Assembly (NCBI RefSeq): GCF_039596395.1
Contig: NZ_JBCNJT010000001.1
Span: forward strand, 1,709,315 to 1,773,314
DNA: 64,000 nucleotides
Direction of reading: 5' to 3'
Origin: Fluviicola sp.
Lineage (GTDB): Bacteria; Bacteroidota; Bacteroidia; Flavobacteriales_D; Crocinitomicaceae
Shown piece by piece: positions 13,227 to 15,156 of this stretch; position 1 is the first letter of the stretch, and each line of letters starts with the position of its first letter. The notes under the pieces were generated by a model. The model made no database searches. It had not been told where the DNA came from and worked only from the letters and a program-made list of their open reading frames with translations. A program made the translations under genes and the position numbers.

Positions 13227-13260
13227 TACTTCTTATTGTTAAGATAAGGCGGTCTATCTA

Positions 13261-13305
13261 TCTCCCTCCTTGAGGAGGGACTAAGGGAGGTGGCTAGTGT
13301 GGGCG
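13261..13305 (+). repeat. REP-like hairpin repeat upstream of the DUF559 gene
   Basis: A stem TCCCTCC-TTGA-GGAGGGA (13263-13280) is followed by AAGGGAGG and the tail TGGCTAGTGTGGGCG. The same layout recurs at 13811-13854, so the nuclease gene between them is flanked by direct repeats. Confidence 0.75.
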
Positions 13306-13343
13306 TCTCTTGCGATTATCGATTTTTCTACTTAAATTAAAGT

Positions 13344-13739
13344 ATGAAAACATTTAGCCACAATCACGACAACCCCAAACTGAAAGAGTATGCCCGTGAA
13401 TTACGGACTGAGACTGTTTCCAAAGCAGAAAAGGTGATCTGGAAAGGATTGCTCTCCAGGAAACAAACCGGGGAACGCTTTCTGCGGCAACACCCTATCT
13501 ATCACTTTATCGTGGATTTCTTTGCCCCTGAGATCGGGCTGATTATTGAGATAGACGGAAATTCGCATTTCAGTAAGCCGGATTATGACCGCTACCGCGA
13601 AGATAAACTGGTTTCGCTGGGTTATACGCTGATCCGCTTTAAAGAAGGGGATGTGATCTGGAATATGGATGTGGTCTCGGAACAGGTGCGGCATGTGATT
13701 CATGCTTTGAGAGCGGGGATGCCTTCTTCTTCCTCCTGA
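13344..13739 (+). CDS. DUF559 (Vsr-like) endonuclease-domain protein
   Basis: A 131-aa protein of the DUF559 family, related to very-short-patch-repair endonucleases and the PD-(D/E)xK fold. The core shows a basic helix RQHPIYHFIVDFFAPE, in which the Asp is a likely metal ligand, then LIIEIDGNSHF with the Glu-x-Asp pair and a conserved His. It ends with GYTLIRFKEGDVIWNMD. The length is normal for the family. DUF559 proteins are widespread in Bacteroidota but their target is not established. The gene lies alone between REP-like hairpin repeats (13261 and 13755-13854), which suggests it belongs to, or travels with, these repeats. Confidence 0.85.
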   Translation: MKTFSHNHDNPKLKEYARELRTETVSKAEKVIWKGLLSRKQTGERFLRQHPIYHFIVDFFAPEIGLIIEIDGNSHFSKPDYDRYREDKLVSLGYTLIRFKEGDVIWNMDVVSEQVRHVIHALRAGMPSSSS

Positions 13740-13754
13740 TTCTCAAGCCAACTC

Positions 13755-13800
13755 TCGATCCTCACGCCACCCTCCTTTATCCTCCCTCAAGGGAGGAGAC
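13755..13800 (-). repeat. REP-like hairpin repeat, inverted copy
   Basis: Read on the minus strand: stem CCTCCC-TTGA-GGGAGG (13781-13796) followed by AAAGGAGGGTGGCGTGAGG. It is the same element as at 13261 and 13811 in the opposite orientation. A further half copy of its GGAGGGTGG end lies at 13864-13879. Confidence 0.65.
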
Positions 13801-13810
13801 TCAGATCCGC

Positions 13811-13854
13811 TTCTCCCCTTGAGGGGAGATCGAGAGGGGTGGTTAGTGTAGGCG
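13811..13854 (+). repeat. REP-like hairpin repeat downstream of the DUF559 gene
   Basis: Stem TCTCCCC-TTGA-GGGGAGA (13812-13829), then GAGAGGGG and the tail TGGTTAGTGTAGGCG. The tail differs from that of the upstream copy at only two positions. Confidence 0.75.
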
Positions 13855-13875
13855 ATCCTCCTTCACCACCCTCCT

Positions 13876-15156
13876 TTATAAACTATCCAAAAAATCCAAC
13901 AACACCACGTGCAGTTTATCCAGTTCTTCTTCCGAAATGCAATATGGCGGATTGAGGTATAGAATATTTCCCAACGGACGGATCAAACAGCCTTTTTCCA
14001 GGAAAAAATCGTACGCGCGATCACGAATGGATGAAAAGTAATTGTTTCCCTCGCCGGTTTCTACTTCAAAACGCAAAATAGTACCGCACAAACCGATCTC
14101 TTTCACTTTCGGATGCGTTTTCAGCGCTTCGATGAAATAGCGGTGACGTTCTTCGATCCATTCGATGGAATCCCAGGTTTCGGGTTGTTCGAACAGGTCC
14201 AAACTCGCATTTGCTACTGCACAAGCCAGCGCGCTTCCCGTAAAGGAATGTCCGTGCAATAAGGCTTTTGCTGTTTCGGGATGCAAAAAAGCATCGTAGA
14301 TCTCATTGGTGGCGACAGTCAATCCCAACGGCAAGATTCCTCCCGTCAATCCTTTCGACAAACATACAATATCGGGTTCCTGCTCACAGAAATTATGAGC
14401 AAATAACTTTCCTGTCCTTCCCCAACCCGTCATGACTTCGTCAAAAATAACGAGTGCATGGTATTTTTTCGCCAGTGCCACAAAAGCATCCAGCCAAGTT
14501 GAATCGTACATGCGCATTCCCGCCGATCCCTGGACCAAAGGCTCCACAATCACTGCGGCAACTTCTCCGGTTTTCAGGATTTGCTCCGCTTGAATCAAGG
14601 ATTGACTTCTTGCTTCGTCTTTCGGGAAATCGATGAAATCTACCTCAAAGAACAAATGCTCGAAAGGCTTGTTGAATGCACCGCGCTGACCGATCGACAT
14701 CGCACCGAATGTATCTCCGTGATATGCACCGTCGAGAGCAATGACGCGTTTTTTAGTTTCATTCTTATTGAACCAATACTGGAATGCCATTTTTAAAGCC
14801 ACTTCAACGGCTGTTGAACCATCGTCCGAAAAGAACACTTTTTCCAGTTTTTCCGGAAGTAAGGATGAAATGCGTTCCGCCAGGCGGATTGCCTGCGGAT
14901 GTGTTGCCCCTGCAAAGATTACGTGATCCAGCTGTGAGAATTGTTCCGTCAAAGCCTGCCCCAAATAAGGATGGCCGTGTCCGTGTACATTTACCCACCA
15001 GGAGGAATTTGCGTCGATGTATGTTTTTCCGTTTGAATCAAAGAGTGTTGTTGCTTCTGCTTTTACAATGTGTAACGGTTCTTTCGCCGTTTGCATTTGT
15101 GTAAATGGATGCCAAACGTGTTTTTTGTCTTGTTCTAAGCCTGTTGCTCTATCCAT
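13876..15156 (-). CDS. bioA: Adenosylmethionine-8-amino-7-oxononanoate aminotransferase (biotin synthesis)
   Basis: A 426-aa class III aminotransferase that transfers the amino group of S-adenosylmethionine to 7-keto-8-aminopelargonate, giving diaminopelargonate. The BioA signature HVWHPFTQMQ is at residues 13-22, with the SSWWVNVHGHGHP substrate segment, VFFSDDGSTAVEVALKMAFQY, the cofactor Asp in IFDEVMTGWGRTG and the Schiff-base Lys in CLSKGLTGG. Its start overlaps the end of bioD by 22 nt, so the two are co-translated. The order bioD-bioA gives consecutive pathway steps. bioF, bioB and bioC are not in the window. Confidence 0.95.
   Translation of the reverse strand: MDRATGLEQDKKHVWHPFTQMQTAKEPLHIVKAEATTLFDSNGKTYIDANSSWWVNVHGHGHPYLGQALTEQFSQLDHVIFAGATHPQAIRLAERISSLLPEKLEKVFFSDDGSTAVEVALKMAFQYWFNKNETKKRVIALDGAYHGDTFGAMSIGQRGAFNKPFEHLFFEVDFIDFPKDEARSQSLIQAEQILKTGEVAAVIVEPLVQGSAGMRMYDSTWLDAFVALAKKYHALVIFDEVMTGWGRTGKLFAHNFCEQEPDIVCLSKGLTGGILPLGLTVATNEIYDAFLHPETAKALLHGHSFTGSALACAVANASLDLFEQPETWDSIEWIEERHRYFIEALKTHPKVKEIGLCGTILRFEVETGEGNNYFSSIRDRAYDFFLEKGCLIRPLGNILYLNPPYCISEEELDKLHVVLLDFLDSL

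Follow-up and report, generated by a model that had tools for sequence, protein, structure and literature searches.

The DUF559 Gene and Its Flanking Repeats

The window, by which we mean the whole stretch of 64,000 nucleotides of Fluviicola sp. DNA that was analysed, contains a small DUF559 gene lying between hairpin repeats, and a class-III aminotransferase gene adjoins these repeats. The features are given below by their positions in the window.

13229–13829, plus strand: approximate extent of the unit common to both DUF559 copies of the genome (82% identity; a 522-column main block and a 76-column block)
13263–13293, plus strand: triplex-type motif 1, TCCCTCC-TTGA-GGAGGGA-CTA-AGGGAGG-TGG
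13344–13739, plus strand: DUF559 gene, 131 aa, predicted Vsr/EDxHD-like nuclease fold (Pfam, alignment, AF2, Foldseek)
13767–13797, minus strand: triplex-type motif 2, TCCTCCC-TTGA-GGGAGGA-TAA-AGGAGGG-TGG
13812–13842, plus strand: triplex-type motif 3, TCTCCCC-TTGA-GGGGAGA-TCG-AGAGGGG-TGG
13866–13879, minus strand: half motif of 14 nt (third arm, loop and TGG only), identical to 13767–13780
13876–15156, minus strand: class-III aminotransferase gene

An earlier note on this DNA had described the gene as lying between hairpin repeats, one of them inverted, with a half copy near 13864, and this arrangement was recovered at the positions above. The two tails that it had called nearly identical are present as it wrote them, TGGCTAGTGTGGGCG at 13291–13305 and TGGTTAGTGTAGGCG at 13840–13854. 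The half repeat overlaps the final bases of the aminotransferase gene and looks like the remnant of an earlier copy that was trimmed there.

The 131-aa protein matches PF04480 (DUF559) in Pfam with 89.4 bits against a cut-off of 20.6, and it keeps all 12 residues that are invariant in a 29-sequence alignment (E29, W33, F46, Q49, D58, F59, E69, D71, G72, H75, D82 and R98). Its AF2 model (pLDDT 88.3, pTM 0.82) retrieved 3hrl (NGO0050; 6.5e-7), 3r3p (the catalytic domain of I-Bth0305I; 1.1e-4) and 1vsr (1.2e-2) in Foldseek, with PvuRts1I/AbaSI and Vsr as weaker-scoring fold relatives after 3hrl and 3r3p. These matches, together with the invariant E, D and H residues, indicate an EDxHD/Vsr-like fold with a conserved acidic/His core, and the window protein is a putative Vsr-fold (EDxHD-type) nuclease. 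The EDxHD label for DUF559 follows PMC9403480. YcjD was placed near Vsr in 2005 (PMC1189080). For Caulobacter VsrA, a DUF559 protein, a mismatch-repair role is proposed in the literature, which ties it to the response to lost cytosine methylation. A defence role was considered and rejected because PADLOC returned only two weak matches for the window protein and none for YcjD.

Each complete repeat consists of a pyrimidine arm, a TTGA loop, a purine arm, a 3-nt loop, a third purine arm and TGG. The third arm is the exact mirror of the purine arm in all three repeats (GGAGGGA/AGGGAGG, GGGAGGA/AGGAGGG and GGGGAGA/AGAGGGG); the internal A of the G-rich arm changes position from repeat to repeat, and the third arm tracks it in mirror order. 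This mirror third arm is an addition of the present analysis and was not part of the earlier note. With up to 3 mismatches allowed, the window holds 3 matches, and the maximum in 100 dinucleotide shuffles was 0. The DNA hairpin energies of the repeats are −6.1 to −7.6 kcal/mol with z of only −1.1 to −1.9, and the repeats would therefore not stand out by folding energy. The Rfam family whalefall-1 (RF01762) matches at 13260–13294, 13758–13800 and 13809–13843 with 18–25 bits, the gathering score being 37, and no repeat in 20 related loci reached that score. The name was not adopted for the repeats because all matches lie below the gathering score. In PMC2864571, whalefall-1 is known from environmental sequences only, and the family may contain triplex DNA repeats.

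Copies in the Genome and Its Relatives

A genome-wide search for the repeat, which had been proposed earlier, found 17 copies at up to 3 mismatches, with none in the backward control. A Y/R pattern that fixes only the purine and pyrimidine classes, TTGA and TGG found 20 copies, and the same pattern read backwards found 0. The third arm is mirror-exact in 20 of the 20 copies, and the stem is perfect in 19. Fifteen of these copies have asymmetric arms, and none of the fifteen is a direct repeat. The genome has two DUF559 matches, and 7 of the 20 copies have one of these genes within 500 bp (expected 0.011); as in RAYT/REP systems, a low-copy gene is accompanied by more numerous gene-less repeats. 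The two DUF559 genes are paralogues whose likeness is limited to the motif-gene-motif unit, with 82% DNA identity that ends near the motifs, and the genes flanking the two units do not match each other. Several repeats sit just downstream of genes, and the tmRNA gene is found about 130 bp upstream of one dispersed copy (L011, 968–1371).

Within the family, only the genome of the window has the TTGA class of motif; it was found in neither of the 2 same-genus genomes and in none of the 21 others. DUF559 is absent from the two same-genus genomes examined. It is carried by five other family members, four of which have other motif types beside it. Among 100 genomes of the order, the backward Y/R pattern matched once, in one genome (G575), and the sole forward match outside the genome of the window (G565) was not mirrored.

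Mirror Symmetry and Triplex Layout

A hairpin followed by a mirror purine arm is how an intrastrand triplex of the purine-motif type (class II) is laid out. All 20 copies in the genome of the window have its elements, namely a pyrimidine arm, a purine arm, a mirror third purine arm and short loops. Since many stems near DUF559 genes are nearly palindromic, a direct-mode finder was also enriched there (49 motifs within 250 bp vs 59 in mirror mode; 26 vs 32 loci), and the choice between mirror and direct order was therefore made on asymmetric arms only. In a first scoring, without T*AT and with duplicates kept, 11 of 240 asymmetric hairpins were perfect in mirror order vs 23 in direct order; after de-duplication (84 hairpins) the means were 0.69 for mirror and 0.67 for direct, with no clear mirror preference. 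This unclear outcome led to a triad code applied to de-duplicated asymmetric purine hairpins near DUF559, in which the third arm sets G against G and either A or T against A. Full triad matches were then found for 16 of 76 hairpins in mirror order vs 6 in direct order, and for 26 vs 7 when second loops of up to 28 nt were admitted. With third arms swapped between loci in 300 shuffles, the corresponding mirror counts reached at most 6 and 7.

Intrastrand triplex repeats are in print as PIT, boxC or TM, named TM_ECO in E. coli (Holder 2015, PMC4666352; also Hoyne 2000 and 2002). They share with the present repeats the order of pyrimidine arm, loop, purine arm, 3-nt loop (TTA or CCG in E. coli) and third purine arm. 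Both include some inverted pairs and dispersed copies, and TM_ECO no. 9 is the motif beside ycjD. They differ in that the arms in the genome of the window are asymmetric, so that a mirror repeat can be told from a direct one, and in that a partner gene, DUF559, is named here. PMC4666352 presents the repeat without a partner and reports that mobility activities were not found beside TM_ECO. It also reports that single-stranded TM_ECO forms a triplex in vitro and that footprinting in vivo gave no support for a stable triplex in the E. coli chromosome. The triplex loci of E. coli are reported to be unstable.

The E. coli K-12 gene ycjD (b1289) is a DUF559 gene (167 bits), and TM_ECO no. 9, which the published table places at 1,351,239–1,351,204, is some 168 bp away from the 3' end of this gene. 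Of 5426 genomes, 3364 match the sapF-ycjD query region at 80% or more, and in three strains that were read, efflux genes adjoin sapF instead, in agreement with PMC12817139. The E. coli control genome of the profile search gave no PF04480 match, though ycjD of MG1655 scores 167 bits; it may be a strain without ycjD.

Association of DUF559 with the Motif Across Taxa

DUF559 is present in 170 of 296 genomes of the phylum. For the association analysis, 84 genomes were put in random order and the top 60 used, with one random match from each. The source was 140 out of about 150 matches among those listed, weaker ones not being included; the matches left out lay near contig ends, had internal stops in some cases or, in a few, were missed by oversight. 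A strict motif lies within 500 bp at 32 of these 60 loci (on both sides at 15) compared to 3 of 115 control windows. Within 250 bp there are 59 motifs (1.98 per kb vs 0.017–0.034 per kb at 1–7 kb), and the reverse-complement control gave 0 in the 60 loci. Most of the 28 loci that lack the strict motif carry, by eye, relatives that are decayed or have a longer second loop. With the same finder, the motif was found at 22 of the 30 top DUF559 loci vs 0 of 30 loci of Y1 transposases in the phylum, the two genome samples being overlapping rather than identical. In the order of the window, where weak and truncated matches were also counted, 12 of 29 DUF559 loci have the motif.

Named loci from many phyla (Proteobacteria, Chloroflexi, Verrucomicrobia, Planctomycetes, Elusimicrobia, Omnitrophota, an archaeon and others) have the motif in 65 of 80 cases, 31 of them on both sides, at 3.04 vs 0.039 per kb; this rate is inflated and should be read as an upper figure because the loci were drawn by a profile of 7 sequences, at least 6 of them motif-linked. 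The association of repeats elsewhere with DUF559 genes, whose absence would by the earlier note have refuted its proposal, is seen in both the phylum and the named loci, and the motif shows no such association with Y1 genes. Where a locus has two motifs, these resemble each other (0.78 vs 0.64 shuffled), and the nearest flanking motifs form an inverted pair at 34 of the 42 loci with both, as the terminal inverted repeats of a classical IS or MITE do. In N. gonorrhoeae (L283), three tandem units of about 281 bp come after a DUF559 gene, and each of them contains an inverted motif pair.

Co-occurrence also holds at the level of whole genomes. A CTCTCC-type motif is found in 47 of the 296 phylum genomes, with 0 in the backward control, and DUF559 is present in 38 of these 47 vs 132 of the 249 others (p 3.5e-4). 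With strong DUF559 matches only, the counts are 36 of 47 vs 90 of 249 (p 3e-7), and by genus, counted by hand, 33 of 36 vs 59 of 104 (p 8e-5). Nine of the 47 motif-bearing genomes have no DUF559 match; one phylum genome (G001) has 8 CTCTCC-type motifs and zero DUF559 matches. A Mantel comparison of DUF559 and motif gave r 0.55 (n 95, permutation maximum 0.20), a correlation that shared descent could explain.

Presence, Absence and Insertion into Genes

Every argument for the mobility of DUF559-motif units is comparative. Association, mirror symmetry, duplication as a unit, presence/absence and in-frame insertion are each established by sequence comparison. At an orthologous site in Pseudomonas, 30 loci (the best 30 of 92 matching genomes out of 119, with L251 as the source genome) comprised 8 with the gene and motifs, 3 with motifs alone, 6 with an empty spacer of 8–33 nt, 5 with other sequence and 8 with no recognisable right flank. 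None of the 6 empty sites has a motif. The other sequence (L268–L270, L272 and L280) consists partly of inverted repeats that by eye resemble ordinary Pseudomonas REPs. One pattern found 231 motifs in P. fluorescens PfAR1, where the DUF559 gene sits between two complete inverted motif pairs and the commonest length among 20 sampled inverted pairs is 143 bp. Target-site duplication was not seen in these 20 pairs (flank match mean 1.9 vs 1.7 shuffled, with approximate ends), and 12 of the 20 (L341–L360) share a further conserved block left of the left motif, which suggests a composite MITE. The missing duplication and the extra left sequence make any placement of the unit's ends approximate. The third arm points outward in the P. 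fluorescens pairs and inward in the dispersed pairs of the window's genome, and the idea that it always marks the outer end was dropped for this reason.

Insertion in frame into protein-coding genes was a further feature of the family. At 27 of the 60 phylum loci, the DUF559 domain is part of an open frame longer than 350 aa. In ten such frames that were searched, DUF559 was found inside LeuRS (at two sites), MetH, RecG, HsdR, HsdM, an M23 peptidase frame and a type ISP enzyme, as well as ahead of HisF and coproporphyrinogen oxidase. At one leuS site, an in-frame motif-DUF559-motif insert replaces a 7-residue variable loop in 2 of 30 orthologues (the best 30 of 58 matching genomes, with L291 as the source), and the other 28 have neither insert nor motif. 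Neither carrier has a second full-length match to the leuS query. The motifs within inserts are translated as peptides, e.g. PSPEGRE and LPTGEDLGG. In-frame DUF559 domains were observed at one leuS site in L291, L299, L130 and L136, at another leuS site in L092, L118 and L131, in metH in L081 and L110, and in recG in L096 and L140, with motif-derived peptides at the joints. The host proteins were confirmed by Pfam for L136, L092, L081 and L140 and identified by reading for the rest; they include essential proteins. An HsdR frame (L119) contains two inserted nuclease domains, GIY-YIG and DUF559.

Relation to Known Mobile Systems

REP/REPIN-RAYT systems are similar in that a low-copy nuclease gene is flanked by hairpin repeats that are commoner elsewhere and often form inverted pairs. 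They differ in that RAYT (TnpA-REP) is an HUH Y1 transposase, whereas DUF559 has an unrelated nuclease fold, and in the triplex third arm. There is no HUH Y1 domain beside the repeats, the protein being PF04480 and the Y1 loci lacking the motif. The GTAG/CGTC tags of REP described in PMC3733652 occur, on either strand and within about 6 nt of the hairpin edge, in 1 of 20 copies. Homing endonucleases of the EDxHD/Vsr type such as I-Bth0305I (3r3p) and NGO0050 (3hrl) resemble DUF559 in sequence and fold and are mobile, gene-invading enzymes, but DUF559 lies outside introns and inteins as far as was read, is bounded by triplex repeats and has gene-less derivatives. Rickettsia palindromic elements are palindromic units that lie in frame within protein genes; they are alike in this respect, and the unit here differs in containing a nuclease gene. 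Classical IS and MITE elements share the inverted terminal motifs and differ in target-site duplication, which the 20 P. fluorescens pairs do not show. A literature search that had most subscription journals and preprints outside its reach found no paper joining DUF559 to triplex repeats.

Proposed Mechanism and Alternatives

The reading that we prefer, with a probability of about two in three, is a REP-like mobile system in which a Vsr-fold nuclease, rather than an HUH transposase, partners triplex-forming repeats and DUF559 moves both its gene and gene-less copies. The gene and its flanking repeats would form one small mobile unit. In each repeat, the pyrimidine arm would pair with the purine arm, and the mirror third arm would lie in the major groove through reverse-Hoogsteen triads (G*GC, A*AT or T*AT). 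The DUF559 protein would most likely recognise the folded single-stranded element, for example in the lagging-strand template, and nick at its edge; nicking would then move or copy its own gene and the gene-less copies, as pairs and as singles. We infer the triplex recognition, the nicking, the single-strand route and the role of DUF559 rather than a host enzyme as driver. The process would parallel REP/RAYT, except that the nuclease is unrelated and a triplex stands where REP has its tagged hairpin. The interpretation given in the earlier note is supported in part. Its core idea, that DUF559 rather than a RAYT partners REP-like hairpins, has strong support from the association and from the genome-level co-occurrence; what the note had overlooked is that the hairpins are triplex motifs (PIT/TM) with a mirror arm and that units insert in frame.

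Among the alternatives, the strongest is a homing-type DUF559 that cuts existing triplex repeats spread by something else, with the gene copied in by repair. Such an enzyme would account for the missing target duplication, the I-Bth0305I catalytic domain is among the closest solved relatives, and the PfAR1 gene does lie between two complete inverted pairs. We nevertheless regard homing as unlikely: the uninserted leuS alleles, 28 of 30, read straight through without a motif, the 6 empty Pseudomonas sites have none either, and Y1 transposases, the sole other mobiliser family tested, show no association (0 of 30). Less probable still is a role in repair or structure processing, in which DUF559, as a Vsr-like nuclease, would clear away stalled triplexes, with repeats and gene kept together for regulation and neither of them mobile. 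Its fold, the methylation response of Caulobacter VsrA and the reported instability of E. coli triplex loci would fit such a role, but dispersed paralogues, presence/absence and in-frame inserts in leuS, metH, recG and hsd look like an invader and not like a housekeeping gene.

Two further readings concern the repeats themselves. Protein dimers favour inverted over mirror symmetry, which argues against the view that the third arm is mirrored for a reason other than a triplex, e.g. as a protein-binding site. The arms moreover co-vary in mirror register, with A or T opposite A. The same view has a variant in which the elements are transcription terminators, in keeping with the several repeats just downstream of genes; this variant was not favoured because no terminator-like site was found at the repeats, and PMC4666352 cites earlier work as finding no promoter or terminator activity of triplex repeats in E. 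coli. In favour of a non-triplex reading, the in vivo footprint in that paper gives no support to a stable chromosomal triplex. On balance, we hold a non-triplex origin of the arm to be very improbable. Hardly credible at all is that these are ordinary REP elements moved by RAYT with DUF559 as a bystander. Inverted pairs of hairpin repeats do resemble REPINs, and the genome has one partial Y1_Tnp match, but no motif adjoins that gene, none occurs at the 30 phylum Y1 loci, and the mirror third arm and the near absence of the edge tag also speak against it; a RAYT origin was rejected on the single partial match without a motif and on the phylum count.

Implications

A bolder reading, which we hold tentatively and at a little under even odds, sees here a distinct class of prokaryotic mobile element. 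Its Vsr-fold nuclease would read an intramolecular triplex as the signal for its ends, spread gene-less triplex pairs, and insert in frame into genes, even essential ones, while leaving them functional. Such a class would explain the orphan PIT/boxC/TM repeats in E. coli and in the other groups in which they are abundant. With DUF559, a repeat long known but without a partner seems to gain its enzyme. The family occurs widely and is still a "protein of unknown function" in Pfam, and joining it with triplex repeats gives both a testable role, for which ycjD and TM_ECO of E. coli K-12 offer a laboratory model. The reported instability of triplex loci also gains a simple explanation from this link. 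Another unexpected result, open to a separate check, is the set of in-frame inserts in LeuRS, MetH and RecG. Should the nuclease indeed read the triplex, an intramolecular DNA triple helix would have in it a natural protein partner.
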